64,000 nt of DNA from Siphonodentalium dalli (lineage: Eukaryota > Mollusca > Scaphopoda > Gadilida > Siphonodentaliidae). Shown here piece by piece: positions 25,321 through 58,138 of the stretch (position 1 is the first letter of the stretch; each line of letters begins with the position of its first letter). Under the pieces are notes generated by a model. That model was not told the DNA's origin, ran no database searches, and saw only the letters and a list, made by a program, of their open reading frames with translations. The position numbers were made by a program, and so were the translations under genes. The stretch spans positions 28,398,987-28,462,986 of the forward strand of contig CP136063.1 of the NCBI GenBank assembly GCA_032622095.1, read 5' to 3'.

Positions 25321-25365
25321 CATATTGGTGGATATATTTCGAATTGCGAATGAATAGAAACACTC

Positions 25366-30313: not shown

Positions 30314-31126
30314 TTAAGGCTTATCTCCGGTGTGGATTCTCTTATGTATCACCAAGTCACTCGATGTATTGAATGATTTCCCGCATATGTCACAATGGTA
30401 AGGTTTATCTCCGGTGTGGATTCTCTTATGTTTCACCAAGTGGTTCGATTGATTAAATGATTTCCCGCATATATCACAACGGTAAGGCTTATCTCCGGTG
30501 TGGATTCTCTTATGTATCACCAAGTCACTCGATGTTTTAAATGATTTCCCGCATATATCGCAATGGTGAGGCTTATCTCCCGTGTGTATTCTCTTATGTG
30601 TCACCAAGTGGCTCGATTGATTAAATGATTTCCCGCATATATCACAACGATGAGGCTTATCTCCTGTGTGTATTCTCTTATGTGTCACCAAGTTGCTCGA
30701 TCGAGAAAATGATTTCCCACATATATCGCAATGGTGAGACTTATCTCCGGTGTGGATTCTCGTGTGTGTCACAAAGTCACTCGATGTATTGAATGATTTC
30801 CTGCATATGTCACAATGGTAAGGCTTATCTCCGGTGTGTATTCTCTTATGTCCCTCCAGGTGACTCGACCGATTAAATGATTTCCCGCATATATCGCAAT
30901 GGTAAGGTTTCTCTCCGGCGTGGATTCTCTTATGTCTCTCCAGGTGAGTCGACCGATTAAATAATTTCCCGCATATATCACACCAGTAAGGCTTATCTCC
31001 GGTGTGGATTCTCTTATGTCTCGCCAAGCTGCAAGATTGGGTATACGATTTCCCGCAAACGTCACAATGATGCCGTCTATTCCCTGCGTAGGCGGTCTCG
31101 TGAACATTCAGGTTAGAATCTCCCAT
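30314..31126 (-). CDS. C2H2 zinc-finger protein, 9 fingers
   Basis: A single-exon frame of 270 residues from MGDSNLNVHETAYAG, with nine C2H2 fingers (CDICGKSF...HKRIH) and TGDKP linkers, except one AGEKP after finger 2. The last linker ends in a stop, and a broken tenth finger follows, so the C-terminus is truncated relative to an ancestor. The start is set by conservation with the genes at 12722 and 58091 and by the TATA box about 60 bases upstream. A nuclear DNA-binding role is inferred from the family; the target is unknown. Confidence 0.87.
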   Translation of the reverse strand: MGDSNLNVHETAYAGNRRHHCDVCGKSYTQSCSLARHKRIHTGDKPYWCDICGKLFNRSTHLERHKRIHAGEKPYHCDICGKSFNRSSHLEGHKRIHTGDKPYHCDICRKSFNTSSDFVTHTRIHTGDKSHHCDICGKSFSRSSNLVTHKRIHTGDKPHRCDICGKSFNQSSHLVTHKRIHTGDKPHHCDICGKSFKTSSDLVIHKRIHTGDKPYRCDICGKSFNQSNHLVKHKRIHTGDKPYHCDICGKSFNTSSDLVIHKRIHTGDKP

Positions 31127-31183
31127 CGCGTGCCGGGAATTGTTAGTCAACTGTGGGCCTATAATATCTCTTGAAGCAGCAGG

Positions 31184-31960: not shown

Positions 31961-32702
31961 AAAACAAACACTAACTGACTAAGGCACAAACCCAGTAAAC
32001 GATGTGCCAGTTAAAGGTGGATTATCTCTTTGTAAACATGTTTTATATAGTTACCGGGGTATAAAATATTAGATTTGAATCGAAGACTCCTGTCCGGAAA
32101 TGCTTATATCGATTACTATTAATTTTATTTCGAATATTTTCTGGTCTAAAAAGGTGTATTTGTTCAGCTAACGAACAATAGTGTTTACCAGAAGAGACCA
32201 GAAATTTTATTGTACAATTTTGTCACAAATAAACGTTAGTTATACTTATTTTCGCTTATATATGTGGAACACAACAATACAAACAATCAATCTGGGACAT
32301 TTGACTTTCGAAACAGCCCAGTGCTCTATATCGCAATATGGTATCATCCGAATGGTCTGTTCTAAAATAGACACATAAACGGTTCCGATTTAATATTCGA
32401 TATAAAATCAATATTAAATGATAGAAGCTTTTTCGGACAGGGGTCTTCTGTTCATATCTAATATTTTATACCCACGCAACTATTTTAAAATTGTTATTTA
32501 AAGTCCAGCTGAATAATACAATTAATTTAGCTCCAAAGATATCTAAATATGTCTTAACTTATGCTAAATAAGGTTTATAACATGTATCCTGTCCATATTA
32601 TTCGCATTTTTACCAAAAACTATTATTTCCAGCCTTTTGAAGAAAACGGCTTTTTTGTTTACAATATTCATTTTTGAATCGGCTGTTTCCGTCGCGACTC
32701 GG

Positions 32703-32721
32703 GACATGACGTCACGGAGGG
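32703..32721 (+). promoter_or_regulatory. CRE-containing motif, left copy
   Basis: GACATGACGTCACGGAGGG contains a perfect cAMP-response palindrome TGACGTCA. It is 67 bases upstream of the transposase ATG and about 200 bases from the element end. The same 19 bases occur reversed at the other end. Confidence 0.65.
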
Positions 32722-32787
32722 TACCGTACCAAGGCGGAAGTGATTTTATGCGCCGTTTTTGAAATCGCTTTTTTGTTTTGAACAAAA

Positions 32788-35700
32788 ATGACTCGTCGCT
32801 GTGTGGCTGCAAACTGTGACCATACAGTTAATCATTTGTTTAAATGGCCCAAGAATGAGGCTATTCGTCAGCAGTGGACGGCGTTTGTCCGGAGCAAGAG
32901 GGTTTGGAACGGGCCATCAGATTATAGCTACTTGTGCTCGAAGCATTTTCAAGAAGATTCGTTCACCAATATTTTTAAATTCAAGCTGGGGCATACAAAA
33001 GTGTGAGTCACAATGTCAAACATATTTTACTCGTACATGAATAACAATTTACTCTACCAATAAATCACCCATTTATGGTCCTTGTGGGTTCAGGGCAGGG
33101 GTGCGTGGGGTAACACAGCACACTAGTCACTAGTAGCCCTAAATGGGTCATGACTCATGTGGATTTAGCCTTTCAGGCGATGTGGGCATCTGGCTTAATT
33201 GTTCTACTCAAGTGTAAATGCACAAATCGGCACCTTGACAACAAACCGTCACTGTACATAGCTATGACAATATTAGGCTTCAATTCCAAGGCTATCAATT
33301 AAGAAGCTGTCTAAATATAAGTGACTGTTCTACGTTAGAGGTAAACATCGATTCGAAAAGTAAAGAGAACCTGAACATGAAATGGAATGAAAATCATTAG
33401 AATAGAACTAGTACTAGTAGTAGGTCTACTCACCAGATTGAACTTTTCGAATAATTAAAATCCAATACGAATCACCCATGTAATGCATTTATGAAAGCAT
33501 GTCAAATGAAATCAGCCGAAAAATTCCATGTGTGTGTTTATACACCAAGAGTACCGCACTGCAGCCTGTAGTGTACCGTACGTGAGAACTGAGTCGATCA
33601 TGTCACAAATTTTAGAAAATATTTCCATCCACAAAATATAAATTCCTTGTATTCCAATCAAATAGTTCAGAGAAATCCTTTACGACAGTTCGAACCACAT
33701 CCATAACTACGAATTTACATGACTACATCAGTCATTGAGCAATAACCGAGCATAACAAACTGATATTTGAACTGTGAACACAAACAAATTTGTAGCATGT
33801 GGTGTGACCTACATTTGAGCTAACGTCATGCGCGTATACATATCCATACACGGCAACGATGCGTCTACTAAAGTTGATGATGAGACCCATACAATCGTAA
33901 AATATCGATCAAATATAGAATTATGTTAGCTTTTAATATGTATTCAGCACACTGTCTGAGTATTATTTAAAAAAAAGAACAGCAATTGCGAGGGACTATT
34001 TTGTTATTGCGAATGTAATATGCGTAAAAATCGTTCGATTTGTGATCAAAGCAATACGTACTACGTCGGTCATATGCATAGGACCGCCCACATTTCGACC
34101 GCCGAATGTGCTAGATATATCCTTTATAGGCCTATATAATTGATGCATTGCGGACATTGTGTGATGCCGGGTCTAGATACATTTAAAAAAAATAAACATA
34201 ACACATACTCAAAATAATATATCTATTTAGATATGTGCCTTTTGGGTTTTTTTTATATTTGTTCAGAGTCTGTTAAAAACAAGTTTTCTACATGATAATC
34301 TAAAGGCCATGATAATATTCAGGTCCAGTAGGCTACAGTTTAGAAATTCTTGATAGCATAACGTGTATCTTTCACACCACCCTTCCACCAGTGGTCATAA
34401 ATTCACAATGAGAATTTTGGTGTCCAAAGCCAGTTGAACAATTTAAACATAAAGAAAAGATCATTTGAAGCATACTAGTAATGAAATATAGGTCAACATA
34501 TGACCGCCTCTGCAGCTTTCTACCCACTATGTGCATGACTGAATCTCAATTAAAAACATAATTGTATAATTCATCATGGAGTCTACAACGATATGAAATC
34601 AGTATGTTTCTGCATGCCAGCTCACATAGCATAAATGGTTAAAAAAATAGTGTGTCTAACCATGTCTAACATGGACATTTCCAGGGCTGTTTTGATACCT
34701 GTTACAGGTATGGGCGCCCAAACTTGAAAACCCCAAATGACCCTAAATACCCTATAGTGGACAGTATTGAGTCAACCTGAATTTTCAAGGCAATTCAACA
34801 ATATGCGATGTAATTAAAAAAAACTGCATTTGCAATACAGCCTTTATAAATTTGCATGTTGAATTTTTAAATCAGAAATTAATATTATGTCATATTTATG
34901 ATATATTATGCATCTGTATCTATTGGTTCGGTGCAGAAGCTGTATTTTAAAGTTATATTGGGATACCGGTTACGGGTACATATCATCTGCTGGAAACGGG
35001 TGTCTCCAAATAATCTCTGCCATTCTCTTGATTCTTCCCTGGTGTCTAAATCTACCCCCCCCCCCGAAATGTTTGACACAGCATGGGTTGAAAATAATAC
35101 GCCACATGTTGGCTGCATGAACTGTTCGAATTTCAAATTTACATCCACCTCCCAATGAAATACAAGAAATGCTAGTTTGTTTGTTGCTTCCAATAATGAA
35201 CGCAATAATAAATTGCATCAGTGTAATAGTGTATCTGTTTTCATTGTATGAAATATTATCAGAAACAGAATTGCACACCAGAAGCCAGTTCCAGACAGCG
35301 GGTTCGGGCTCTTTTCACAACTGTTCAAAGTACCCGAATAGATCGCTGATTGGTTTCTATTTTTATATAACTGCGCGAGCCACGACTGTGATTGGCTTAC
35401 TCCGTAAAAGAATGCGGAAGAAAGAAACGACGCACGTGTTGACTGAAAATTAAGGGGGGTTGGTTACAAACTATTATGATGCCTTTCTCATGGCCACATT
35501 GACAGCGAATAAAACTGATTTCTTCAGACTTTCAAAGTTCTACCCTATTATCATGATTATGATGTATAGAAATTTGAAGAAAACAAATATCCAAAGCCCA
35601 ACTTCCAATTTATGTAATTTTTATATTGCTAAAATTTAGAAAATGTATATTGTATCTCGCTATAATATACGACCATATGGAGTTATTGGTTAGAGTTGAC

Positions 35701-38700
35701 TGAATCTTGGTTACAAATATTTTATGGCGGGTTATTATCAGCGACGTGACGACGGCGTGGGGTGTTATATAATTTTTTTAACTTTTGGTCTGAAATAATC
35801 GTCATTAAAAACATTTCAACCTTAGCTCTGGGGTGTAAGGTTGTAAATTTCCAACAATTGGAATTGATGAGGTACCAGTTGGAAACATCTAAATTATTGG
35901 CAAACTGAACTGCTCTCCTGAGGCATATTATTAAGTTGCCTCATATTGATCACAGTAATTTGACTGTGATTAATATAATTTGATTGGCAACAATTTCAAA
36001 TTTTCAAACCAGTAATTGTTGGGAATTGAGACACAATTGTTGATTTTTGGACCAACAGCAGCCTATCTTGCTACTTTTGGTCTGAAATGGTTCAGAAGGG
36101 AGGGATCCATATGGTCCACGCAGATGGTCTGTTTAAGATGCAGTTGTAAATTTCAAGCTCCACCCCCCCCCCCCCCCCCCCAATGGAGACCATCAAGCCA
36201 CATCCAAGAGCTCACATAAATTTATGTGAAGACCACACCTCCTTTCATAAACAATTATTACACCTGGATGTACCAGAACACACATGTAATTATATGACTG
36301 GTGTATGCATTTCACTAAATCCAAGTCTTATAAAATGGAGGTTGGAAATGAATATTAACTTCAGTGCAGTCATTCTCCCAACATAGTATGCTGCCACGGT
36401 GGTTAGACATGGAACAATTAAAACTGAATATTCATGGTGCTAGTATTGACTGTCAGAAATGTTATGCCACATTATAAACATCATTCTTAATTGTCTATTA
36501 TGTGTGGATTTGTGGGTCTATATGGGACATACAATTTATAACAAACCTAAAAATTATTTTATGATGGTTGAATAAATGTGCTAACATTCCACCATAAGTT
36601 TTATACTGGATGTGAAAAACAATAACAAGTAAATAGTTTATGAGTCTTCATTTTATTCAAGCAAAACATTTCATAATGAACACATTTCATAAGACTATCA
36701 TTTTATGGCATAGCATGAAGACCTGTATTTGGTATTAATTGTAGCTGCAGCAGATAATTTATTTGATACTGTAGACCAATTAATAATAGCAAAACATTCT
36801 GACCAAATATTACAATCCATACATTTTGTTTTCATTCTACATAGTTTATATCTCAAAGATGATGCAGTGCCCACAAAACAGATGGAGCCTACAACTCCTA
36901 CATGTACTCAACACCCACAACTAACACCAAAGCGTGTGACAAAAGCAAGGAACTTGTCAATCCAGCGACAGAGGAAACAATTGGTGACAGAGATGTTATC
37001 TCCAAAAATCAGTTGTCAAAATGTTTCTCCTGGTGAGATTTTCTTCACTTTATAAATGGAATATAAAATATATTCAACATTAATCCTTTCATGATGATAG
37101 CTGCACTGGTGCAGAATTAAAGATCATGTGCCAGTGCATTCTCTTATATATGCGAGTCTCCCATAGGGAGCCTCACATATATAAGAAAACTGGCTTACAA
37201 GGGTAAGATCAATATTGTTAGGGCCATGTATTCTCTTATATATGCGATACTCCTCATGGGAGACTTGCATATTTAAAAGAATGCATTGGCACAGGGTTTT
37301 CGCAAAAAATTCAAAATGCAGACAGATAGAAGTCTCAGTTCTGAAATAATAACCAGCACGACGATTGATCGGAAAATAGATTCATAAATGTTTTAGGAAA
37401 CATGTCAGGCATCTGATACATGAAATTATGCATTGGGTTCTTGCTGCAGTGTAACTTTCACTCCAATTTGTTTTACAAAAAAAATAGCTATCATTTCACT
37501 GGCAGATCAAATCCTTTCATTACTTCCTACATGTATATAATATGAGAAAATATTGAGGTGCAGTCAGCGAGCAGATTAATCCATGTGTTGCAATTTCATT
37601 TGAAGCATTAACACTACAGTCATTTCTGATAACATTAAATAAGCTAAGAAAACAAAATTAAGACCAGCCCCTATCATTTTAGTAATGAAATCACCAGAGC
37701 TGATGGTAGATCTCCCTGAGGTGGGAATGGAGCTGGAGGTCAACACAACCCTGGACAAAGAGACACAGTGTGTTGTCAAGACAGCAAGCAGAGGTTGGTG
37801 TTCTGCTTAGAAATTCAGAAAACTTGCATGGTATGGTTAAGCATCTACTAATGATGAGATTTAAAGCGATTCAAGGCACTCGCAGTGGGTACATCTGCAC
37901 AAAACATGAAAGTCTACAATGTTAACACATACCAGTATCCATTAAGAATAATGGAGATTATTGGTAGTTTATCAATAAAATAGTTCGCGCATTGAAATCA
38001 TTATTATATATAAACAGAACTGGTAGTGATTTGTCAACAAACATCGCTAATCATGTAGTACAGTAATGCTCTAATTAATCGTCTCCTTAACCACAGCAGA
38101 ATTATGGCTAAACGTTTGGTGGCTTGTTGCCATTCATCGGAAAGCTCTCGTTGAGAGCTTTCCGATAAATGTCAACAAACCATATTTCTGACTAAATCCT
38201 GAAAAGTTACTCATAATTATGCTGTAGTTAATGAGTCGATTAATTAGAGCATTACTGTACATTAAACATTGTTATCTTATTGAACCAATTGCACTTTTAT
38301 CTGTAATTCCACTGTAACAGTGATATTTACATTAATGATGGGAGCTGCGCATATGGGAAGCCAAATTGACATTTAATAAATAATTGAGCTTAAGCGCAAT
38401 AAGGAATTCCTTATTGCGCTTAATAAGGGAAGATCTAATTGCGCTTATATAAAGCGCAATAAGGAAATTCCTTATTGCGCTTAAGCGCAATAAGATCTTC
38501 CCTTATTGCGCTTATGCGCAATAAGTGATTCCTTATTGCGCTTAAGCTCAATTACTTATTAAATGTCAATTTGGCTTCCTATATGCACAGGTGCTGCATT
38601 AAAGATCCTGTGCCAATGCAGTGATAATGTAAAGTTTCAGGGATATTTGTACCCATGTTATCCAGATTTGCACTGTAGAATAGAGTATATGAACAAACTG

Positions 38701-41700
38701 TTTTCATTGTGAAACTCAGTGTACAGTTCAATGCATTTTTTAGATTGTTTATTCTTACTTTATGCAAATGGAGCGGGATGACTTTAAAACAAAGTGATTG
38801 GGCCATCCAATCTTTTGTCAGAAAATAATGAGGATGCGAATTGGGAATTTTGGGGGTCAGAAATTGCGCATAAACTTTACTACAGTAATGCTCTAATTAA
38901 TTGACCCCTTAACCACAGCAGAATTAAGGGTAACTTTTCAGTATTTAGTCGGAAATATGGCTTGTCATTCACCAGAAAGCTCTCCCAGAGAGCTTTCCAA
39001 TGAATGGCAACAAGCCATAATTCCGACTAATTCCTGAACAGTTACACATAATCCTGCTGTGGTTAAGGGGTTGATTAATTAGAGCATTACTGTATTTAAT
39101 TTTGGAAAGAAAACCAAATATTTATACTGCATAATACCATCTGTACTACTGTTAAAACAGTTCAAATAATAAGTTGCAAGAATTCCATGATAAATAGTCA
39201 CTATCGCATTGGGTGCCATAATTATAGGTGTACAGGTTAAAGTGCAGACACTAAAGAAAGCGAGAAGGAGGGTGGTAGTTGTAAGGAAGCTAGTGAAGAT
39301 GAGAGATGTTCAGAAGAAAAGTCGGGGGACTCAAGTCAACAGAAGAAAGAGGAAGAGAGATTCAACTGGGGTGGATATGAGCAAGGTTTATGTGAGGGTG
39401 ATCAGAGCTCAGATGAAGCAGAAACCGTAAACCGCTCGGACCCAGATTATACGCCAGATCTTAGCACATTTGATGGATCAAAATTTGATGAGATGAGGTA
39501 ATGTGTACTCTCGAGGTTTGAAGTATTGTTCTAGATCTATGATATATGAATATGAAAAATAAACATCTGTGTTGAGACACTTTTATCATTGCTTACCGGA
39601 AAATATATTTAACTGGTATTAAAGTTGTCAAAAGTTAATCAAAACACACTTAGAAAATTATTAATTTCAACTGATTCTGTTGAATAGTCTGCTGAAATCT
39701 TACACCTTACCAAACACATGTTATACTTTCTTTGAAGCCAGATTACAAATTTGAATGTGACATACTTCCGGGGAATCTGTTACATGGTTGCAGATGATTG
39801 ATTCATATATCCATGAAAAAAATTCTTAAACCAGTGTAAATAAAATTGCAGCAATTTTCTTTTATGTAGAAAATTTGTAATCTTGATTTGTTTTACAGAG
39901 AAGAAAATGTGGATGCAATCCATGAGACGAAATACATAGTGTTCCATTCAGCTCTACTAAAGCTATTCCAATTGTGCACGTTATGTCAGAGTAAAAACAG
40001 AATGTTGCACAGGCTGAATGGAACTCTGTTACATGTACAAACCACATGTACTGGCTGCCTCAACACAAAGGAATGGTTCAGCCAGCCTCCACCGGTGAAA
40101 CGTGTTGTGATAGGCAATATACTGTTGAGTGCCCTCATTCTATTCACAGGGAGCATACCCTCAAAGGTTTTCAGACTGCTTAAGTAAGAATTTAAAACAT
40201 TTTGTGTGCTAACTATGGTCAGAAATAATATTGTATGAAATTCTTTATCTCTAGTTTGAACTAAACATTAAGAGTTATTCAGTCAGAACATCAACCAAAT
40301 GTAACTGTTTAGTGAAATAAACTTCAAGAAATCATTATAATAAGTAAAACTTGAAAGTGCCTCCAGCACTGACTGAATACTTACATGAATACTCTTAGTT
40401 TGTACAATTTGTACAATGAAAAATGTTCAGAATGCACAATACAACTGTATTTACTGATATAGTAATGATATCCAAATGATGGCCGACCTGTATCTTTGTT
40501 CCAATATATTATCAACACCTCAAAAAAAGTTAGTTCCCGCCTCATACATGTATAACACCCGATCACTCTATCGTTGCTTAATGAATTGAGAACATGGGAA
40601 ATGTAGAATATTGTGGGATTTGAATATCCGATTGTTTTCTAACTTTCTTCTGGATGCTGTTTAATTGGCAAATTAGCCATTTAAAAAAATCACACTTTCA
40701 ACTTTGACGCGGACTCTCAACAGAATTTCGTGTTGATGGGTTAACTGGGTGATGAATATTTGCTAAGTGTCACCGGACTGATTACTGGGTAAGATTTTAT
40801 TGAACTGAATCAGTTGTCACTCAGTTAGAATGTTGGGGTACAATTTTGAACACCTCCCTATATCTGGTTTACTGCATGCACAAAGGGATATATGGCACAC
40901 CAGGCAGAGTTATCGATTCATTGAAGACAAACAAACCAATAATGCAGGTCGATCAAAGAATTAAATGGAGTGTTAGAAGTTGAAAGTGTGATTTTTGAAA
41001 ATGGCAAATGCATTCAATATGATCTCAATACAGTAATGCCCTAAGTAATCGACCTCTTAACCAAAGCAGAATTATGGGTAACTTTTCAGGATTTAGTCGG
41101 AAATATGGCCTGTTGCAATTCATAGGAAAGCTCTCACCGAGAGCTTTCCGATGAATGGCAACAAGCCATAGAGTTTTCCTATGAATGGCAATAAGCCATA
41201 TTTCTGACTAAATCCTGAAAAGCTACCCATAATTCTGCTTTGGTTAAGAGGTCGATTATTTAGGGCATTACTGTATGTTAAAATCCGATGAATAAAGTAC
41301 TACTTTTTGTGAGGTGTTTAACAATGTTATTATCCAACAGTTTCATGCATATCAAGTGTCATAGCATCAGAACATTCTTTTACCACCAACGAAAGTACCT
41401 TCACACTTCAATTGATGGAGTGTTCAGTGATGATATAAAAGCAGCGAGAGGATCATTGGTCGGAAAGAGAGCTTACCTTGCCGGAGATGCTCGCTGCGAT
41501 TCGATGGGGCATTCGGCGAAATTTTCGACATACACTATTCTAGATGCAGAGGAAAACAAAATAATTACCTCTGTGCTAGTGCAGGTGATTTCATATCCAG
41601 GTTGATCATCAGAGACGGACTTGCCGATCGGGAGACCGGGTAAATTCCCGATGGGCCGTCGGCCAGAAAAATTATGATTCCATGTGATTTTCTATCAAGC

Positions 41701-44700
41701 GACAATCCGAGGTTTTTTTATGGTTTGGTGGGGGGGGGGTATATATGGTTGGGCCTCAAATGAAACCGACGTGGGCCGCCACATGTGTTGTCTAAGCAGC
41801 CTAATTGGCTTATCGTAATTTTGTCATTAAATAAACTGTCACGTAACACCACGTAAAGACCCCGTAAATCTAAAAAATTTAGCGGTAACTCCCAAAACAT
41901 TTCTCGCAATATGATCTCAATACAGTAATGCCCTAAGTAATCGACCTCTTATTGACATTGGTTGAGGCCAGTCTAGATTCTAGGATTAGCGATTTTCTTG
42001 TATAGTTTTCAAAATTTTCTCACCCCGGGCTGAACCATGGAACACTCCCACTCTTGGTGCCTCAGCAACTGCCCTTGGTAGATGGGCTGGTATTATATTC
42101 ATTTCCCGGGCATTTTTTTGTCCAGTCCGCCTCTGTTGATCATAATATTGTGTTAAAAAATAATAATATTGTACACGAGCCACAATGGAGAATTTATCAA
42201 ATCTAAAAAATAGTAAATCAGCTCAAATTATCTAGTGACTTATCGGTTTTCACATATTACCATAAATATTGGTTAGAAAAAAAAAAAGAACTAACAAGCC
42301 ATTTGAACCTATTTCCAAGTCTGTTATCTCCAACTGCCTTTGTTAGTTTCGGGCAAAAAATTGCCAACTGTTGGAACATTTAGACCTGAATAGACCAACA
42401 GCTGGTCGCTCACTCACTCTAAATTATATATATATAATCAATGTGCATGTTCATTCATTCATATGGTGAAATAAACAATAATAACTAAAACTTAATGGTG
42501 AAATAAACAATAATAACTAAAACTTAACGTCACTAAAATTTATATAAATGCAATAAAGGAACATATAAAATTAATTTCTGGAATTTTCATATATGTACAT
42601 ACTAGTAATAGTCCAGTGCATTTATGAGAAAAAATGCCAAACCCGGAACTAATTGCAACAGAATTTTTTTTTGCTGGAGTAAGTACATGAACCCTCCATA
42701 AACAACATACTAAAAATCGGCAAAAATCGGAAAAAGGGAAATTGGTGAATTTCGTGAAATAAATTTGGGAAAATTTGGTCAAATCATCATTTTATGGATT
42801 TTCATGAATGTTTATAAAAACAATCAAATTCACAAATCCTACAAATAGGATATGTATTGTGTCGTCCTCAGTTTCCTGAACCCAGTACTGAAAACCAGTC
42901 CCAGATTCATTACGTATTTTTCGAGTTGTGTGCCTTCAAAAATGCAAGTTAACCTGATTTTGGCCCATTTTCGGGGCCTCACTTTCGAAGAATGAGCCAA
43001 AATGCCTTATTTATGATTAATTATTAAAAAAAACTAGAGCAAACTGAAGGGATTTCTCACTGTTTTAGTAGTTTCCTCACTAGATTAAACACAAAATATG
43101 ATTAATATGTGCATCTATAATTAAGAAGACGATTATATTCTCAAACAAAATGTGTGTTCCATTGTATGGACTTAGCCAATTTTGCCTCTGACACTGAATG
43201 TGTGTGATGAAATGCAATATTTGAGGTAATGTAACTCAATAATTTAATACCCATATGCCATGCGTTTCTTATAACCTTTTAAGTATGTTGGATTGAACAA
43301 ATTGTAAAGGTATTAACAGGACATTATTTAAGAAAATCAACTTATGGCCCTTTGAATACTTAGTCTTAGCTTGTTTCCAAAGATGCCAGTTTGAGGCATT
43401 TTTGTCCATTCTAAAAGGATTTGGGCCATAAAAACAAAAAACAATGGGTGTTTTAATGTGTAAAATTATTTGAACTTTCCTCCCACAACACTTAAGTGAT
43501 AAAAAATTAGCCTTACATTGGTTATGCCATAGTATGTCACTAGATTTCTTTCATTTTTCAGGAAAATGACTCCAAATTTTAACGTTGGTATAGGGGTAGG
43601 AAAAATCACAAAATGCAATCTTATCACCAAATTACAGCCATTTCAGACACAATGTTGTTTTCTTCCAGTTTGTGTACATTCCTGTTGCATTATAAAACTG
43701 CTTAATACGTTATCGGACGTTGATTTAGAATTTTATGGTTATGTTGTATAAAAACAATCTCAAAATGCCAATTTGACATTTCACTGCCAAATTATGACAA
43801 CAAATATTATAGCTCTGTCAATAAACATAAACAGAGGAAATATGAAATTATGCATGAAAGAACAATGTAAGCAGAAGCTGTTAATATAAAGTTTTATACT
43901 TCAAGATGCATAATTTTTAAGTTTTTGTTGATATGCTTTCCCCTACCCCATTGTTCTGCCGTTCAAATTTGGAGTAAGTTTCCATAATGATGAGTGAAAT
44001 CCAGTGACATTCATTGGTATAACCATTGAAATGCTATTTTCTCAACAAAAACATTATTTAAGAGGACAGATCACATAATTTTACACAATAAACTTTCGTT
44101 AATTATTCTGAATATGCCTAAAATCCTTTTAAAATTGACAAAAACGCCCCACAATAGCATTTTCGGAAAAGAGGCTAGACTAAGAGTTCATAGGACCATA
44201 ATTTTATTTTCTTCACCAATGTATTTGGAAATTACTTCACAATTTCTTCAATCTAGTATTCTCAAAATGTTATGAGAAAAGCAGAGCATATGGATATTAA
44301 TTTATTGAGTTACATGACCTCAAATATGGCATTTCATCACACAAGTTCTGTGTCAAGGCAAATTTGGCCATACAATGGAACACACATTTTGTTTGAGAAT
44401 ATTTTATTCTCCTTATTCATAGATGCACATATTAATCATATTTTGTGTTTAATCTAGTGAGGAAATTACTAAAACAGTGAACAAGTCATTAATTTGGCAC
44501 TAGTTTTTCAAATAATTAACCACATAATACGGCATTTGGCTCATTCTGCGAAATTAAGGCTCCAAAATCAGGTAAACTCGCGTTTTTGAAAGCACACAAC
44601 TCGAAAAATACTTAAGGAATCTGGGAATGGTTTACATTTCTGGATTCAGGAAAATGTGGTCGACAAAATAGGCATGATATTTGTAGGACTTGTAAATTTG

Positions 44701-47700
44701 AATGTTTTATATACATTCATGAAAATCCATATATTGATGATTTGACCAAATTTTCCCAATTTTTTTTCCACGAAATTCACTAATTTCCCTTTTTTCGATT
44801 TTTGCCGATTTTTAGTATGTTGTTTACGGAGGGTATATGTACCAATTCCAGCAAAAAAAATTATGTTGCAATTAGTTCTGGGTAAAACCATAAATGCACT
44901 GGACTATAATGTTACCAATGATAATCTCTGTATTCAAACACAAAATCGATCAAGATACTGAATTTGGAATTGTATTGAATGATTTTTATAGCAAATAATT
45001 TAAAATTTCACCATATATAAATGTTCATTATTTCAAGAAGTGAAAGTCTGCAAATAACACCCAATTTCAAAGGTAATCACAATTACAGAGTAATGAAGTT
45101 CAGAACTCCAACAGGATGGAACTAGAAGGGCTAAAACGATCTGTAAGTCAACTGAAAGATGTGAATATTGCAGCCTTTATTTCTGACGCCCACAGGCAGG
45201 TTGCCAAATGGACACGGGAGAGTTGGAAGGTGCCGCATTTTTTCGACTGTTGGCATGTTGTAAAGGGTTAGTTACATATACAGACAAAACATACTACATC
45301 TGTAGTGTAAGTTTGCATCAATGTCACTTTTAAAGTACATGTATGTGAATATAATATAGTTTGTCGAACAGGAATACAATTTTTAAATTAAAGGTACTCA
45401 ATCCGATTAAGCACCCTTAAATTACTATTTCTTTGGCTTCAGGGGTAAAAAATATTTGATTCAAGTCGAGGAACCCATCAAACAATGCTCAGAGTTATCA
45501 GATATTGATTTTTTTAATTTCTAATTTTCTCGAGATGTGTAGTAATAACTGCCCCATAATTCGACTCGAATCAAATATTTCGGATTATTAAAGTACCTTT
45601 AACACATGCATGCATGTGTATGGTCTTATTAAATTGAAATATAGGCATCAATATCATGAACACATGTCATGCTTCTAATGAATTTGGTATGCAAAAGTTG
45701 ATAATTGCTTTCCTGACAATGCACTTCATGTTTGTGACTGCAAATTGATTTTTGTTTGACCAGAATAAAAATAAAATGCAGCTGGAATACAAAATATATT
45801 ACCCCGCCCCACATTTAGCAATAGTTTTACAGGGAATGCAGTTATTTTGTTTGTGTATTGACAATGTCTGATCTCTGGGATACCGACACTGAAGGGGTCA
45901 CTCTCACTAAAAAAAAGTGCCGAAGTGTACATAGGGTTTGAAAATGTGCTGACACTGTTACTTAAACTATGTTTCTGAAAGTCTGGTGCCCATTATCAGT
46001 TTATATTCAGTTCATTTTAATGTTCATTGGAACATAAAGAAATTATTCTCCAACACAAATCATGGCAGATATGAAAACTAAACATCATTTAGAACATTTC
46101 AAAACCTGTAGACCTTCGAGCACATTTTTAAAACCTGACCCTACAGCACTGTTTTTTTTTTGTGAGAGTGATCCCTTCAGCGATACTGACAGCATGTACA
46201 TATCGATAAAAAGTCAAATGCACATCTTATGAAATCTATATTTTCCAGTTATAATATTTATCCTAGAATTGTGCATTGTAGTTGAAAAATATAGCTTAAA
46301 CACCATCACCCTGCCTGGAATTCAATTCTTACTACATGTAGTGTTTGCAATATTTCTAATTATTTTCTTGTCTTTATGAGGACTTGTTAAGAAGCTCACA
46401 AAATTGGCAAAAAGGAAGGACATGGATATCATCAAAGAATGGATAAAAGGAATCAAGTCACATATTTATTGGTGTGTTGCCACCAGTGTGCCAGGAGACA
46501 CTGAAACAGTTAAGAAGAAATATTTAACAAGTGTTGAGCATATTCAAAATGATCACAGGAACTGTGCACATGCCCCATATAGGAAACAAAAGAAATGGCT
46601 AAAAAAAGGTGAGCTAAATTATATAAACCATTCTTAGAATAGATACCAGAATAGATACCAGTGCAAATCATGAAGCAATTTTTCAAAATCAGATAACGTT
46701 TCGTGTAACAAACATTGACTATGACCTGACAAGACAATTAACACAATCATATCACCTTACTGCGAGTGGTAAAAAGTTTGAAAAGCACCATTTTTTCAGA
46801 CTGAATTAATGAATCATAGTCTCCAATTTGGCGAAGTTTTTTATTTACCATGAAAAAGATATATGACTACTATAAGCTATTATAATTCTTATCTGTATTA
46901 ATTAGTTCATTAATATCCAAATCTTGTCAATTATGAATGGGGGTAAAATTGCAACAGGAGCATTTCCAATAAATATAATGTATGTGAATAAAAATGGGAA
47001 TGTTTCTTGTAGCTGACAATGCACCCAGGATAGATGACTGAAAAGTCTAAAAACTTGCAAGATTTTTTCTGATTTCACCATGTCGTTTTCTTTTGTGGTT
47101 TGCAGGAAGAAAGGCAGCTGAGCAGCTCAATGAATTGATGACAAAAACATCAGTGATCAACCAAATAAAGAAAATGTCTCCATATGCCCAAACATATGGT
47201 GTTGAAAGCTTTCACAGTCTAGTGAACCAATTCATGCCAAAAATGTTCCAATTTTCATATTTGGGAATGAAAAGCAGGTACACATAATTAAATACTGTGC
47301 AGACTATCCTGATTTCAGCAATGTATGTAACTCAGAAAAGAGCATAAAATAATCCAAGCACTCAAAGGCTATTTATGCAAAACTATGGTTTCAATTTGTT
47401 GAAGCAAGAATTTACGCAACAATCTATGAATGCATTTAAAGGTACTCAATCCGTAAAGAGGGTCCCCATCTCAACAGATTCCAACAACAACAATCCGATC
47501 AGAGGGTCCTATATTACTATTTCTTTGGCTTTGTGGGTAAAAAATATTTGATTCGAGTCGAGGAACCCATCAAACAAAGCTCAGAGTTATTAGATATTGA
47601 TTTTTGAAATTTGTTATGTTCTCGAGATGGGTACTAATAACTGCCGTAATCTGCTCTGGATGTGTACTCCAAATCTATTCAAACAGACAAGGATGGATAA

Positions 47701-49302
47701 CTCTAAAATCAAGTGGTAATTTTAACGCAATTTTGACTGAGTTCTGGGCCAGATAGTATCCCGATAATGAAAAATAATAGATTTCTAAAATCGATATCTA
47801 ACAAATCTGAGCTTTGATGGGTGACTTCCTCGACTCGAATCAAATATTTTTGACCCCCGAAGCCATTGAAATAGTAATTGAGAGGAGTTTTATCGGATTG
47901 AGTCCCTTTAAAGGTGGATTTGAAATTAAACTGAAAAATAAATACATGTAGTATTATGTATCCTAAAGTAGATCATTGGAAATTTCAAAGGATGAACTCA
48001 TTGAAAATTGTATTAGGATATACATGTACCATATGACCAAGATACCAGACCAGAATGTACTAATTAATCACATATTTTTGCACATCTCCAACAATATGTG
48101 CTTTGACTGAACATTTGAATTGCAATTAAAATTTGTTGTTCAACAGACATTTCTTCAGGCCTACTTCTTTAAAGAGACTCAATGCCTTCAAAGTGGGGAC
48201 TCAATGCCTTCAAAGTAGGTCCATGCGAAATAAGATAAAAGTCTGCAAACACGCCATCATCAAATATAAAAAAATTAATTTATTGTATTATTATTTTCAT
48301 TGTTAATAAATCTGAGATCTTAGTGAGAATTTGCATGACAAAACCATTGTTATGTAAACATTTTACTGTTACAGTAGAATTACTGATAAAATCACTGCTA
48401 AAAAGTAAATTGTAACCAAGGAGACACTAAAATTGATCAATTGACAAAAAGGTCAAAGCATTGAAAAGTATTCTGAAAAGCGTATTCAGATTAAAATATT
48501 TAATCACTGTAACAGTTTTCAAATTCAAATACATATAATTATGTTATTGGAAGAACTATTAATGAATGTATGAACAAATTTTATCTATTTCTTTATGCTC
48601 TTGTCAGGAGTGATATTTTACAGACTTATATTCTGCACATTCACCCAATGAGAGTGACTTCGGTCCCTTTAAGAGCACCACAGGTCCCCAGAACAAAAAA
48701 TTGCCCCCCAATCAAACTTAAACCTATAACATAAAAGTTTTATTGGGGGGGGGGGGGGTAAAAAAAAATTCTGGAGACCTGTGAAGAGACTGTATATTTC
48801 AGGAACCAGTTAGCTGTGCTGCACCACAATGAAAATTGTAAGAGAAGTCAAGCAATGACATCAGCAGGGAATCTAAGGTGGTCAATTGTCCACAGAAAAT
48901 ATAAAGATGAGCCAACGTTGCGAAAAGTTATGTCATTACCCACATTTGGTGAGTTGAATTCGCAATCTGTCCATTCATTACATGAATATATCTGAAAATG
49001 TGTCATAAAACTCATATAATGAGTCATATATATGTTTCAGTGAAAAAATACAATATGATAAATAGCGTGTCCTGATTATTCATAGGATTAGAAAAAATAT
49101 TACATCGCTACTGACTGTTATTTCAGATTATGTTGAAAAATGCCTGAAAGCGGTGATGAAATCCATCAACAACAAACCAAAGAAACTCGCTCTAGCAGTA
49201 CCACCACATCTGTGTAGTAACAGAGAAAGAATTCCATTGGAAACCCTAATTTCAAAGCACAGGACAAGATTCAGGAAGAAGCCTGTCAAAACAAGCAGAT
49301 AG
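32788..49302 (+). CDS. THAP-domain transposase (Kolobok-like), 11 exons, 730 residues
   Basis: Exons: 32788-33002, 36845-37032, 37683-37793, 39248-39497, 39899-40183, 41341-41584, 45089-45266, 46381-46608, 47106-47277, 48803-48948, 49127-49302. Every junction has AG/GT and phases agree; the total of 2193 nt gives an open frame. Residues 1-70 form a THAP finger (CVAANC, WPKN, YLCSKHF). An acidic region follows (SDPDYTP), then a zinc-ribbon-like part (CTLC and CTGC) with WFSQPPPVKR and GNILLSALILFTGSIPSK. Candidate catalytic residues are D399 (AGDARCDSMGHSAK), D464 (SDAHRQVAKW) and E600 (GVESFHSLVNQF). The protein should bind and cut the element ends in the nucleus. Exon 11 ends in basic sequence. 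The basic frame at 39209-39430 is a shadow of acidic exon 4. Confidence 0.88.
33003..36844 (+). other. Transposase intron 1
   Basis: No gene is seen. It contains C-runs at 35055-35065 and 36163-36181 and several AT-rich tracts; short ORFs here have no recognisable content. Confidence 0.6.
37118..37300. repeat. Imperfect hairpins with tcttatatatgcgag / catatataaga
   Basis: Two adjacent stems with similar arms; related sequence recurs at 53195-53270. The flank gtgccagtgcattc also recurs near 38600. This is in intron 2. Confidence 0.6.
38061..38257. repeat. Hairpin MITE (family B), complete
   Basis: CAGTAATGCTCTAATTAATC...GATTAATTAGAGCATTACTG flanked by TA, with an inner stem TTAACCACAGC and ggaaagctctc at the turn. 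TA flanks suggest a Tc1/mariner-type element. Confidence 0.85.
38346..38589. repeat. Multi-palindromic cruciform element
   Basis: The outer arms (GGAAGCCAAATTGACATTTA and complement) enclose repeated palindromes built from AAGCGCAATAAGG and CCTTATTGCGCTT, including AAGGAATTCCTT centres. At least four nested stems fit. It is in intron 3. Confidence 0.9.
38883..39092. repeat. Hairpin MITE (family B)
   Basis: The same termini as 38061 with TA flanks; the inner sequence diverges by point changes. Just upstream of exon 4. Confidence 0.85.
41031..41273. repeat. Hairpin MITE (family B) with internal duplication
   Basis: CAGTAATGCCCTAAGTAATC...GGGCATTACTG. The right arm has an extra copy of the atgaatggcaa(c/t)aagccata segment. 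Its left end with 15 bases of flank is repeated at 41907-41951. Confidence 0.85.
42611..44904. repeat. 2.3 kb foldback element
   Basis: GTCCAGTGCATTTATG at the left is matched by its complement at the right, with TA flanks. The two arms of about 1.1 kb keep the same features in mirror order: gctggagt/tggtacat, aaaatcggcaaaaatcg, ttggtcaaatcatcaatt, tcgagttgtgtgc, actagattaaacacaaaata. They turn near 43770. It lies in intron 6, and the arms differ by scattered mutations. Confidence 0.85.
45392..45598. repeat. TTAA-flanked foldback (family C)
   Basis: AGGTACTCAATCCG at the left, aagtacct at the right, between TTAA sites; internal arms ttgattcaagtcgag and ctcgaatcaaat. Confidence 0.75.
45886..46187. 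repeat. Foldback (family D)
   Basis: ccgacactgaaggggtcactctcac...gtgagagtgatcccttcagcgatactg, with inner arms gaaaatgtgctg / gagcacatttt. Confidence 0.8.
47440..47907. repeat. TTAA-flanked foldback (family C), longer copy
   Basis: AGGTACTCAATCCG...CGGATTGAGTCCCT between TTAA at 47436-47439 and 47908-47911; long inner arms around gattcgagtcgagg. Confidence 0.8.
48668..48783. repeat. Short foldback
   Basis: cacaggtccccagaac...ctggagacctgtg with a C-run and G-run as part of the stem, immediately upstream of transposase exon 10. Confidence 0.75.
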
Positions 49303-50115
49303 ATAGCTTCATAATTTAAAAAAATGGACATAATGTCATGTTTTGTCAGAAGAAGCATTATGAAGTGGCCCCAATAGTATTCCATAGCTATGGTGTCCTG
49401 TTTCCGCCAAATACTTTTTTTCGCTTCCTTCGGTTTCTTCATGGCGAAATAATCTCAATTATTTTGGATCCTTTGCCATGAAGGAACCAAAGGAGGTGAA
49501 AAAAATCAAAAGATAGAAGCCAGAAATCAACTAACGAAAGGGAAAATACAGTAATGCCCAAAGTAAGTGACCACTTAACCACAGCAGAATTATGGGTAAT
49601 TTTTCAGGATTTAGTCAGAAATATGGCTCGTCGAGTGCTTTCCAATAAATGACAACAAGCCATATTTCCAACTAAATCCCGAAAAATTACCCATAATTCT
49701 GCTGTGGTTAAGTGGTCACTTACTTTGAGCATTACTGTACATGATTCTATTTCGCTTGCTTCATTTGGTTTTGTCACTTTCAGCGGTTCCTTCGAATGCT
49801 TCACAAAGTATCCGAAGCAAGTGTAGGAACTTCCGAAAACCAATAATCGAGAACCAAGAAATACTTTTGTCTTGGTTGTTGTTGTTGGGTTTCGACTGTT
49901 CCTTCACTTGCTTCGGATACTTCGCAAATCACTTTAAGGAACTGCTGAAAGTGAAAAAAACAACAAAATGTCGCCACGAAGAAACCAAAGAAAGCAAAAA
50001 AATACAAAATGAGGCAAGTGAAATGTGTTTCTGCTTTCATCGTTTTTTTTCGCTTGCTTCATTTGATTTTTTTGCTTCCTTCAGTTCCTTAGTGGCTTTA
50101 CAAACAAAATGACAT
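49303..50115. other. Interval between the two convergent genes
   Basis: It holds the family B hairpin at 49549-49737 and low-complexity sequence with repeated gcttccttcg / cgaagcaag patterns. No gene and no clear polyadenylation pair identified. Confidence 0.55.
49549..49737. repeat. Hairpin MITE (family B)
   Basis: CAGTAATGCCCAAAGTAAGTGACC...GGTCACTTACTTTGAGCATTACTG with TA flanks. Confidence 0.85.
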
Positions 50116-53100
50116 TCACTCAAGCACAGGAAGGCGGAATCCTCGGTAGTTGTCATCATCTTCTGGAAAGTGTGCACGAATACATGAAACAGCACAAGCA
50201 GGAAGGTTCACACGGTGATACTTAGCACAGTATCCCCAACCCCACCGCTGTAACTGACGATAAGCTGTGTGTCGGTATCTAGCAGGTTGGGGACCCTGGA
50301 AGGCTCTCTTCCCATACTGCTGGCGAAATGAAAGCCAGGCAACTTGTAGCACAAATCTATCCAGGCATAGGCTCTTAAATCCTGGACAGTTGGTAATACA
50401 ATTGTATTGAGCATCGTCAAGGTGATTCGCTTCTTCAATCTTTGATTTAATTTCCTCTATTTCCCAGCAACAGAGGCATTCTGGGGCTGTCTGGAGTACC
50501 TGACAATGTGAACAAGTACACCTGGAATAAAAAGAAAACTACTAGTCCAGTGCATTTATGAGAAAAAATGCCAAACCCGAACTAATTGTCACAGAATATT
50601 TGTTTGCTGGATAAGTAAAAATAATAAAGCGTCCAGTGTAGTGTCCGGAAATATTTTCCTGACCCCCCCCCCCCAAAATAATTAATATAATCTGCGAATT
50701 ATCTTCTGTTCTGGAAACATGAAAGTGAGGTCCACAAAATAGACATGACCAGCCCTGGGAATTATATATATTATATTGCCTAGGTAAAACAGAAATAGAA
50801 CCTCTTTAGCCAAAATGACTTCCTTAAATCACTATTTACATATATTGTCCTAAAATTGTTTCCATGGCACTGGGCCATTAACTAGCTACCCATAAGGGCA
50901 CTAGTTTTGGAGATGCTTTGTGGAATGTATATATATGATGAGTTGTGTCCTGGAAATGTTCTCCAAAATAACCAAGCATTTCAGGTTATTATTGAATCAT
51001 ATTGATTTGAGATGGCAATATTATTGCAAAATAGCCTAGGTAAAATCTGTTTTGCCAAGGCTGATCTCTTTCACCTAGGCAAAAATATTGCCTAGGCAAA
51101 TTTTCCTTAATTCCCAGGGCTGCATGAAATTGGAGGACTTCTGAAATTTGAATTGTTTGAATACATCCCTGAAATTCCATAAATTGATGATTTGACCAAT
51201 TTCCTTTTTCCATTTTTTTTTATTTTTAGCATGTTTATGGAGGGTTTTAGAGCAAAAAAATTTGTTGTAATTATTTCTAGGTAAAACCATAATTGTTCTG
51301 GACTATACTGTCTAGTCAGGGCTGTTACTAGCCTACTAGGATCATCAGTCACCTTAATGTGACAAAAATAACAACTGATTGATGTTTATTTTGTTAACAC
51401 AATCCAAATGCTTAAACTTGTTTAATAGTTTAATCGACTGTACTCACACAACATCAATTTAACTTTAACTCAATAACACTACTAAAGTATATTCATAAGA
51501 GCCATTTTATGTTATTTTTTCTGGTAAAATATCAGTCTCAAATGTTTGATATATACACACATATCTATACTTCTAAAAATAGTAACATTTGTTGAACCAT
51601 ACTCTGTTACTATTAAGGGGATACTGTCCACTAAATCCAGCCATTTATGAGACCATCTCATTTTATGTTCTGCAGAATATAATAACAAATGAATTTGAGC
51701 TATAAATAAGTGCAAAATACACTCATTTATTTTATGAAAGATGCAAACAACATGGTAATTATAATGAAATTGAATTAGCGACTGGAGCCAAAAAATTCAT
51801 TTTGATTATAATTACCATGTTGTTTTACATCGTTCATAGAACAAACGAGTGCATTTTTCACTAATCCATGGCTCAAATTCATTCATTTGTTGCATATATT
51901 CAATTGAGTATAATAGGAGATGGTCTCATAAATGACCGGATTTAGTGTACAATACACCTACTACAATGAGTGAATTTAAAAAAAAAATCTACTCAACTAG
52001 TATGTGTTTCTGTTGATCAATAACTATCAGAATGAGTTTATTATATTTTAGTGCATTGATCTACAATTCTACATGCATGTCGTCCAAAATATAAATCTAA
52101 TTAAATGCTCGAATCTTGCGAGCATGACTTCAATACTGTAATTTGTTTTAGTTCAAGTTTTATATTATTATGCATGTACCAGTACCAGTATTGTTGTTTT
52201 GTAAGAATGTGGTTTCAGATAGATGAGATAGGATTCAAGTTTACTTGTATTCTGTATAATTATGATCCATCATCATCACAAAAGCAATATTAGGGTCGGC
52301 AGATATTTTTATGGTTGGTCGGAAACAAGTATTTTTTGTTTGACTCAACTGATGGAAGAATCTATTTAGTGAAGAGTTAATATTATTGTCACTAACGCTG
52401 AAGGGGCCACTCTCACCAAAAATAGTGCTCAAGGGTACACAGGATTTTAAAATGTGCTGAAGGATACAATCAGTCTCTAACAGAATATCATGGCAGATAT
52501 GAAAACTAAATGCCATTTAGAACGACATTTCAAACCCTGTGTACGCTTCAGCACATTTTCAAATCCTGTGTACCCTTCAACACTTTTTTCGGTGAGAGTG
52601 ACCTCTTCAGCATCACTAACCATATATTACTTGTTATAAAATAAACTGGTACCTTACAAAAGAGTTGGGCTACTTTTTTCTGACATGAAATACCAGAATG
52701 GAAATTCCAATATGCTTTTGTGTTAAATTTATAATACATTACCGGTACTAGTCAGTCCTTCCCAGGAGACGGGAGTGATTGCACTCGCATCCGTACGCAC
52801 TGATAATTTTTAAATCACGGGTGCTAAATTTTGCACGCGTCCGTCATCTCAAAATAATAATGGAGACTATAATTGTGGGTTCAATAGTGAACTATTTGAA
52901 GGTTTATTTAGATCTTTACCATCTCAGTTCAACGATGGCATATTAAAGTGTAACTAAACATAGGTCTATTCCACAATGACTTTTTGTTTTAGAAAAACCC
53001 AACTTATATTATAGTATGGATGCAATATTACACCCGTCTTCTGAATTACGGGAGAAAATAAATGCTCTCGCTGTGTTTTCCTCGTGGGAAGGACTGCTAG

Positions 53101-54370
53101 TACATTCTTTGCGGATTATAAATGGCACAGGGTCTACAAGGCTTATTTTTACCCTTTCATGACTGGAGCTTACTGAAATTTTGTGAAAAACCCTGTACCA
53201 ATGCTTTCTGTTATATATGTCAGTCTCTCATAGGGGGTCAGGGAGACTCGCATATATACTAGTTTAAAGCGAATCAAATGCTGAATCAATTCAGTCAACA
53301 CTGAAAATTGAAAAGTTTCGCGAGAATCATTTTGAGAATCGATTCGGTGATTCCCATCGGATCTTATGGATTTGTGAGTATTCAATAATGAGATATGTGT
53401 GCAGTTTAACCTGTCCACAACTTCCAAGGGTTATTTTGATCAACAGTTTTTGGCAATAATCTGGATACAATTGGTTTCTGTATAGCCTATAGACAAATAT
53501 TGCTATACAGAAACAATTTGTATGCCAAAATAAATTCAAAAAACAAATTAAAATTTTAATTTTAATTTTTTTCAAAATATTTAATTTTCTTTTTATATCT
53601 GTTTATATCAGCATAAAATATGATGGTAAGCAGTTACGGACATGGGTCAGTGGGTTTATCAGAAACATCATTTCATGGTTAATTTCTTTTTAGGCCTGAT
53701 AAATTTTTACAATTAAAATATTTTTTATAATTTTTTTCAAGAATTACCACTTGACCTACTTTTGAAAAAAATAAAGTAAATAAATTCAATAAGATCAACA
53801 ATTCAACATGGAATAAGTACTAAGCAGCTGTAAATTGTAATGCGAAATATAATACTGAATATATATATATATATTATATACATACATATAGTAATAATTT
53901 TACTATATACCACTTCATGTTACACCAAGAAATATTTGAACTCTTGAATCTGTAGTGTAACTTTTGCTCTGACAGCCTCTGGTAATTTGCAATGAATTTG
54001 ACAGGAAACACCATGTCAATGAACGATTCTTTCGAAATTGGTCATATTTAATATTATGTATTGATACTTATAAAATATGCAGTGATAAAATAAATTCATA
54101 GTCAGTATTATATTTCGTAGAACTGTACAGCACTAGTTAGTTTAAATTTGCGAAAACGAAAAAATGGCGTTTTCAAATTGTTGACAAACTAACAACAGAC
54201 TAAAATAATCACCATTCTGCAATCAAAGCAGGGTCCATGCGACGAATTACTGCCGGATCGTCGGACACTGGTCTCTCTCCGATTTCTGGAGGATCATTTT
54301 CTTCTGGTTCAAAAGAGGCTAGATCGAAATCGTCTTCAAGTTCAACGCGAATATTATCAGATTCTGCCAT
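50116..54370 (-). CDS. P2X7 C-terminal (ballast, zinc-binding) domain protein, 2 exons, 187 residues
   Basis: Exon 1 is 54370-54213 and exon 2 is 50521-50116, joined AG/GT in phase 2 to a 564-nt frame. Residues 1-50 are very acidic (ELEDDFDLASFEPEEND). From W53 the cysteine-rich domain starts: C54-x-C56-x2-C59, C68-x-CC71, C94-x3-C98, C105. It is followed by RHTAYRQLQRWGWG, then LPACAVSCIRAHFPE, the characteristic end of the P2X7 C-terminal family (YRQF..W, R.V.PSC.V..IR..FP). In vertebrate P2X7 this domain is cytoplasmic and coordinates zinc; here no channel segments exist. The gene converges on the transposase and starts near the right end of the element. The longer ATG at 54436 lies inside the CRE motif and is unlikely to be used. 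Function in the transposon is unknown. Confidence 0.85.
50545..51303. repeat. Second copy of the GTCCAGTGCATTTATG foldback family
   Basis: The same termini as 42611-44904 with TA flanks and related inner sequences (gaccaatttcctttttcc, aaaaccataa), but shorter. It begins 24 bases upstream of the ballast gene's exon 2. Confidence 0.75.
51618..51948. repeat. Foldback (family E)
   Basis: gatactgtccactaaatcc...ggatttagtgtac, with arms gagaccatct/agatggtctc and caacatggtaattataat with its complement at the centre. Confidence 0.8.
52388..52620. repeat. Foldback (family D), second copy
   Basis: gtcactaacgctgaagggg...cctcttcagcatcac, related to 45886-46187. Confidence 0.8.
52621..54212 (-). other. 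Distal part of the ballast-gene intron
   Basis: AT-rich, no gene. Contains a hairpin-like remnant at 53195-53270 and an AT microsatellite near 53860. Confidence 0.6.
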
Positions 54371-54420
54371 TTTCCGCAGCACGTTGTCAGTGACGCAAAG
54401 CAGAACTGTGCATTTGTGTT

Positions 54421-54439
54421 CCCTCCGTGACGTCATGTC
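54421..54439 (-). promoter_or_regulatory. CRE-containing motif, right copy
   Basis: The reverse complement reads GACATGACGTCACGGAGGG, identical to 32703-32721, 51 bases upstream of the ballast-gene ATG and 195 from the right end. Confidence 0.65.
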
Positions 54440-55312
54440 ACGTGCTCATCCAGTAGCCATGTGCGCGCAGTGCAAAATGAAAACAAATCTTCGGCGGCTG
54501 TTTTGTTCCCAAGATATAAAAAATAATTGCGGTATATTTTGACGGGATTTTTTGGCGGATTTGTGTTAAGGGGACTTAGATACACACGGGATGATATATC
54601 AATACTCAAATTAGGTTACAGTTCAGCTGGACTTTAAAGAGATAATCCATCCTCCATTGATAGAAGACTTTCCTGACAAGGGTTTTCAGTTCATATTTAT
54701 TATCACATTGATCGATATATTTCGAATTGCGAATGAATAGAAACACGCCTTGCCTTGTTCAGCAGAATATCCGTTTAAAAGAGTTTTCCAACTTCGACAA
54801 TGTTATCTCACCTCAAAATATACGCGTTTACAGAACCACAATCGGCGTGATGTGTAAGAAATTCAACGCTGCCACGTGTTGGGGTGTCACCTATAATTGT
54901 CTATCCTTCTATTTTATTCTTTAGTATATATTTTAAAAATATTTTTCTGCAAGTTCCCGGTGTATAAATCATGTTGCGTAAGAGATAATCCTTCTTTTAA
55001 AAAGTCACTTCACATAGTATATTTCTACCATGGGACATACACGATAAGCATAATACACGACAATTTTTTCCTAAGAGATATATTTGTTGCCAACCCAATG
55101 ACCACCAAAAAATCGCTTGTTTTAAAAACTATTCCTAAGAATTTAATTTAGGTGAATAATATGTTATGTACCCCCAATGATAGACATTTTCTTATTTAAA
55201 ATGCAAAAACCTGTTTATTATTGTTGATGATGCCAGTGAACATGTTGCAAAGAACAAGTATGTATCTTTTTGGAGTACTTTTCGGAACACATGTACCCCC
55301 GAGTCCAAACGC

Positions 55313-58091: not shown

Positions 58092-58138
58092 CGTGTGCGG
58101 GATTTGTCAGTCAGCTGTATATCTCTTGAAGCGACAGT

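Follow-up and report, generated by a model that had tools for sequence, protein, structure and literature searches.

A young, intron-rich Kolobok-superfamily transposon in Siphonodentalium dalli with a KolX-like P2X7 ballast gene as its convergent second gene

Does a transposon that carries the ballast domain otherwise found in the P2X7 receptor own the gene, or did the gene end up there by accident? The question is raised by a 64-kb stretch of the Siphonodentalium dalli genome (G000:C3:28398987-28462986, in 2.227 Gb assembled as nine large contigs; the window hereafter), for which a first-pass annotation made from the sequence alone had proposed a 22-kb TTAA transposon with a transposase and, on the opposite strand, a ballast gene. 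Our answer, to which we give a probability of about 0.9, is that the element belongs to the Kolobok superfamily: a recently mobile transposon of autonomous type, working like a Kol0-lineage element, with KolX as convergent second gene. It is a new, young, intron-rich member of a published KolX-bearing kind: Kojima & Bao 2022 (PMC9587614) described Kol0-lineage Kolobok elements of vertebrates, annelids, cnidarians and sponges that encode KolX, a match to the P2X7 ballast fold, and proposed that P2X7 originated through fusion with KolX. The link between ballast gene and P2X7 drawn by the first-pass annotation is the connection already published there.

The limits of the element are given by its ends. 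As had been claimed, these are exact and inverted, with TTAA flanks: the 16-mer TTAAAGTCCAGCTGAA is found at 32498-32513 (+) and, inverted, at 54622-54637 (-), which leaves, without the TTAA duplications, an element of 22,132 bp at 32502-54633.

32498..32501, no strand: left TTAA target-site duplication (exact end match; uninterrupted target in paralogues)
32502..32513, plus: left 12-bp terminal inverted repeat AGTCCAGCTGAA (5'-RR; exact inverted match)
54622..54633, minus: right 12-bp terminal inverted repeat (exact inverted match)
54634..54637, no strand: right TTAA target-site duplication (exact end match; flank alignment)

The termini, AG...CT, follow the 5'-RR...YY-3' rule of the Kolobok superfamily (PMC9587614), and the superfamily's 4-bp TTAA duplication surrounds both this element and the second copy described below. 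Past 12 bp the two ends diverge, save for GACATGACGTCACGGAGGG, which forms another exact inverted match some 200 bp inside. Genome-wide (2.2 Gb) the 16-mer is found 128 times and its reversed control once, which places the end sequence beyond chance; the 100 places listed include four inverted pairs no more than 40 kb apart, with lengths of about 22 kb (two pairs), 2.0 kb and 2.8 kb. Assignment to piggyBac as the TTAA superfamily is unsupported, the homologues being of THAP type and the termini AG...CT.

Insertion is directly shown by the flanks, which, when fused at one TTAA, align uninterrupted with 24818-25434 through the point of fusion, 556 of the 672 columns being identical. The 23-mer GTTATTTAAAGAGATAATCCATC is uninterrupted at 17583, 20095 and 61730(-), with one change at 24547 and two at 25245. 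The TTAA that was used for insertion lies close to the end of a dispersed repeat that is older than the element. This repeat, of about 500 bp (32011-32497 plus 54638-54655), has copies at 14781, 19595, 24818 and 61708; its own ends, judged by eye, look like TTAA-flanked inverted repeats (GGTGGATTATCTCTTT), and it is possibly itself Kolobok- or piggyBac-like.

Between these ends, 11 GT/AG-bounded exons on the plus strand, spread over 16.5 kb, join into a stop-free transposase frame of 730 aa.

32788..33002, plus: exon 1, THAP domain (PF05485; Pfam, gene model)
36845..37032, plus: exon 2, AVPT box (gene model)
37683..37793, plus: exon 3 (gene model; acceptor and donor choice least certain)
39248..39497, plus: exon 4 (gene model; acceptor preferred over 39236)
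39899..40183, plus: exon 5 (gene model and alignment)
41341..41584, plus: exon 6, first catalytic Asp region, GDARCDSMGHS (gene model and alignment)
45089..45266, plus: exon 7, second Asp (ISDAHR) and DxxH (DCWH) (gene model and alignment)
46381..46608, plus: exon 8, H2CH zinc-finger residues (gene model and alignment)
47106..47277, plus: exon 9, catalytic Glu, GVESFHS (gene model and alignment)
48803..48948, plus: exon 10 (gene model and alignment)
49127..49302, plus: exon 11 with stop (gene model)

The intact 11-exon gene that had been predicted is firm for exons 1 and 5-11, where homologues can be aligned, and softer for the poorly conserved linker, where the acceptors of exons 2-4 were picked partly to keep the frame open (the alternative exon 4 acceptor at 39236 gives a stop, and 39248 was used instead). 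The THAP domain is matched by Pfam with E=1e-11. Across 10 aligned proteins D399/D403, D464, D484-H487, H544/H549/C552/H554 and E600 are invariant, D399 and D403 both being candidates for the first catalytic Asp, and the THAP residues are nearly so, one protein lacking that part. The product is a DDE transposase with the C/DxxH and H2CH residues by which the Kolobok superfamily is recognized. Against a fish homologue, 99% of the transposase is aligned, at 38% identity, and the 120 homologues listed, out of 155, are spread over fishes, a hemichordate, a nemertean, a priapulid, lancelets, echinoderms, molluscs, ticks and a sponge. Two long transposase frames about 31% identical to this one, at G000:C7:27299817-27301307 and C8:189806479-189808038 (no stop and one stop, respectively), appear to belong to a further Kolobok lineage of this genome that lacks these introns. 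Within introns and spacer (38045-41280, 42600-44912, 49533-49740) lie a palindromic block of about 2.3 kb and several short elements with inverted repeats, the latter all of one family, and such nested repeats may explain part of the 22-kb length.

The second gene has two exons on the opposite strand, as the first-pass annotation had it, and encodes a protein of 187 aa with the ballast domain (PF20478, E=2e-15).

54213..54370, minus: KolX-like gene exon 1, ATG at 54370 (same exon in second copy)
50116..50521, minus: KolX-like gene exon 2, ballast domain (PF20478 P2RX7_C) with seven zinc cysteines (Pfam, alignment, structure model)

It is convergent with the transposase gene, and its first exon starts about 270 bp from the element's right end. 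The seven cysteines and the fold of P2RX7_C are recognizable in the sequence and in the model, and zinc binding is predicted; the ligands were identified by alignment with P2X7 and from the papers' seven conserved cysteines rather than from coordinates. Unlike the C-terminal cytoplasmic ballast of the P2X7 purinoceptor (PDB 9e3o, 6u9v), the 187-aa protein comes with no P2X channel domain, P2RX7_C being its sole Pfam match. The structure model used was built from 119 sequences (predicted local distance difference test score, pLDDT, 83); one from 18 sequences was poor (pLDDT 57). Foldseek and VIA-align, run with this model, gave no noteworthy fold besides the P2X7 ballast among the matches listed, and a scan of viral contigs with KolX gave a single matching stretch and no locus.

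Does this gene belong to the element? At 22 kb the element is unusually long compared with the ten full-length XKol elements of Xenopus (6.8-13.9 kb in the available passages of PMC6004289), and it could have swallowed host DNA, the ballast gene being a chance passenger caught between two transposon ends. The first-pass annotation had named the lack of the gene from all other copies as one outcome that would make it such a passenger. A second full copy at C3:213958678-213980923, 185 Mb away, with its own flanks and TTAA on both sides, does carry the ballast gene, so the gene is no passenger. This copy is 99.54% identical to the window element over 20,830 aligned bases (2,726 gap columns); all 134 residues of its ballast exon and 50 of the 53 of exon 1 are identical, and its transposase has indels in exons 4 and 6. 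Changes between the two are few, and at 0.68% and 0.71% in coding sequence against 0.43% elsewhere, the coding parts are not more conserved.

A genome-wide search points the same way. At least 151 matches to the ballast exon were found, as the first-pass annotation's proposed search for multiple copies beside transposases anticipated; the figure is a minimum, 150 out of the 375 candidates having been scored, and these 150 underlie the classes and the pairing given here. By identity they include the window pair (2), 10 at 63-79%, 25 stop-free at 44-50% and 91 with stops at 38-43%, many of the last with an identical stop pattern; 43 of the 150 are stop-free. They fall into 144 loci, nine of which have one of 61 scored transposase matches within 30 kb, where random expectation has a mean of 0.12 and a maximum of 2. 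In all nine, the window element and second copy included, the genes lie on opposite strands and converge, and none of the nine falls outside the 53 loci whose identity is 44% or more. A tenth locus, at C6:67.77 Mb, has the same convergent layout on reading its DNA. In these lists 135 of the 144 KolX loci lack a partner, as do 24 of the 33 transposase clusters, some of which may be fragments or other lineages, and at the diverged loci C3:210, C9:200 and C8:5.9 Mb no convincing full pair of terminal inverted repeats surrounds both genes in the stretches examined. With the second copy, nine convergent pairs out of nine and this abundance of domain matches, a chance passenger is extremely unlikely, and the claim that the element mobilizes the domain as its second gene is upheld.

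Both ends also share a subterminal motif, GACATGACGTCACGGAGGG, which contains the cyclic AMP response element (CRE)-like TGACGTCA.

32703..32721, plus: GACATGACGTCACGGAGGG, its core 209 nt inside the left end with TTAA included in the count; the transposase ATG follows 81 nt downstream
54421..54439, minus: GACATGACGTCACGGAGGG, its core 202 nt inside the right end with TTAA included in the count; the KolX ATG follows 65 nt downstream

The offsets of TGACGTCA in the second copy are the same, and it lies about 200 nt inside seven of the eight end copies fetched, the eighth (L005) being without it. It also stands 47, 44 and 35 nt before the start of three diverged KolX genes, which are all those in which a first exon was sought and located; it is not in the 3.4-kb loci around ballast exons, in which the first exon was not located. 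For comparison, the 64-kb window has 4 occurrences of TGACGTCA and the 357,596 bases examined have 20, these places included. We read it as a probable CRE-like promoter part of each gene, judging by position and motif; it is possible that it is instead a binding site for the transposase.

Elements without a transposase bear on both the origin of the ballast gene and its role. Two members of the decayed group were read (L055, L058). Both are TTAA elements, 4,182 and 7,048 bp long, that have the ends AGTCGACGTCGCGAAA and AGTCGCCGTCGCGAAG; each holds a KolX fossil and no transposase match. In both, TGACGTCA lies 188 nt inside the right end, and the left ends carry TGACGTAC at 198. They look like non-autonomous deletion derivatives of another KolX family. 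Decayed KolX is present at dozens of genomic places, a fossil spread by hitch-hiking as seen in the two elements read.

Such copies, in TTAA elements without a transposase match, and the short repeats that fill introns and spacers could suggest that the ballast gene is part of another transposon, lying inside the Kolobok element or next to it. We consider this very unlikely: KolX exon 1 lies close inside the element's own right end, the CRE-like motif is common to both ends, and the transposase-less elements have TTAA ends of their own and would be deletion derivatives. Passenger and nested element are both rejected on the second copy, the convergent pairs and the place of KolX at the element's own end.

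What, then, does KolX do? The transposase-less elements multiplied with a decaying KolX of their own, so movement does not require an intact copy of the gene in cis. This amplification fits a KolX that regulates transposition or antagonizes silencing and takes no part in the reaction itself, as does its nature as a small zinc protein with the ballast as sole fold among the listed matches. The present data do not separate regulation from a reaction component supplied in trans, and we rate the regulator a serious candidate at somewhat below even odds. We favour an accessory or regulatory role in transposition.

The element can be placed among known systems. With the Kol0 lineage (Kolobok-1_XT; KolX; PMC9587614) it shares TTAA duplications, 5'-RR/YY-3' ends, a DDE transposase and a second protein, KolX, with the ballast fold; it differs in its transposase of 11 exons over 16.5 kb and its length of 22 kb. 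This likeness rests on the presence of KolX and on features of the element rather than on placement in a tree. The full-length XKol elements, as far as the available passages of PMC6004289 describe them, share the AG termini, TTAA and a transposase with THAP, DDE and H2CH; their coding coordinates look to us like single uninterrupted frames, in contrast to 11 exons here, and a second gene, here KolX, is undiscussed in those passages. KolobokP (PMC9587614) likewise has a small protein gene downstream on the strand complementary to the transposase. An identity with KolobokP is rejected: a repeat search of 32000-55200 gave no long terminal direct repeats (about 450 or 660 bp) at both ends, and the two proteins, the element frames scanned, have no Pfam match to a His-Me finger nuclease.

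Other genomes add to the case for mobilization. In Corythoichthys intestinalis the best homologues of both proteins have consecutive gene numbers (LOC130927604, LOC130927605). In Ptychodera flava each protein has a homologue on a contig of 13,990,091 bp and in Tubulanus polymorphus on one of 27,379,721 bp, with non-consecutive gene numbers in the latter; the equal lengths suggest a shared contig in each species, with adjacency not implied. Between Corythoichthys and Ptychodera, KolX is 67% and the transposase 61% identical (P0121/P0122, P0001/P0003), which is close for such distant hosts, and horizontal transfer is possible.

Could the transposon have taken up a host ballast domain, for example from P2X7? 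Stand-alone ballast genes are widespread in the survey of Rump et al. 2020 (PMC7016195), which in its available parts takes two linked markers as ancestral synteny and prints the domain of one tick protein as TAHP; no word starting with "transpos" stands in its main text. The same parts report no ballast domain joined to P2X outside vertebrates, and KolX-type proteins were found in cnidarians and hemichordates. Among about 120 homologues, 40 KolX positions are near-invariant, and 18 of these are not shared with human and rat P2X7 (of the 18, the start Met falls beyond the part of P2X7 that was aligned, and E73 is opposite a gap); C105, W115, R145, W148, R156 and C166 are among those absent from P2X7. 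We hold uptake from a host to be highly improbable. A ballast tree of 55 sequences (window KolX, three mammalian P2X7 chains, 16 labelled homologues and every third unlabelled one, with a length cut) does not bear on where P2X7 came from: it groups window KolX with other non-P2X7 sequences at support 0.63 and shows the P2X7 chains as one long branch. In our literature search the link between KolX, P2X7 ballast and transposons appeared only in PMC9587614; PMC9319628 contains Kolobok and P2X7 once each.

A tentative joint reading, which we hold at a little under even odds, is that of a conserved two-gene unit, the convergent genes each having a CRE-like promoter (TGACGTCA) 188-209 nt inside the ends, at 35-65 nt from the start of KolX on its upstream side, and the arrangement being retained in families whose inverted repeats differ. 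KolX would bear a transposition-specific surface (C105, W115, R145, W148, R156, C166 and others) that was lost after capture, P2X7 keeping only the zinc scaffold. In the main reading given at the outset, the transposase would bind the element ends through its THAP domain and cut and paste the element into TTAA, the motif inside each end would form part of each gene's promoter, and KolX, inherited within the unit, would be an accessory zinc protein that assists or regulates transposition. The vertebrate P2X7 C-terminus would be a captured KolX domain, as published (PMC9587614). Possibly new here are the intron-rich member, the placing of TGACGTCA, some 200 bp in from the ends and, in diverged families, immediately before KolX, the amplified transposase-less elements with decayed KolX, and the conserved KolX residues absent from P2X7.

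Elsewhere in the window, positions 776-8300 (+) hold retrotransposon-type frames (PNMA-like gag with zinc knuckle, reverse transcriptase, integrase, PHD finger) with a TatD DNase-domain frame immediately after them; no long terminal repeat pair surrounds them in 1-12000. A second THAP-like element at 18731-24228 has HTH_Tnp_4 and DDE_Tnp_4 frames on the minus strand (21759-20696), a THAP-looking frame at 24228-23809 (by eye only) and a YqaJ-like frame (+) at 18731, just below the Pfam cut-off; we take it to resemble ISL2EU-type elements. Three similar frames of tandem C2H2 zinc fingers (11619-12833, 30314-31183 and 57414-58106 (-)) form, by eye, a gene cluster around the element. Neither an Rfam nor a tRNA scan of the window gave a match.

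P2X7 is a drug target. The young and well-preserved element, its two genes and its many diverged relatives make the published link from KolX to P2X7 testable, and the list of residues that set KolX apart from P2X7 and the shared subterminal motif give concrete starting points.
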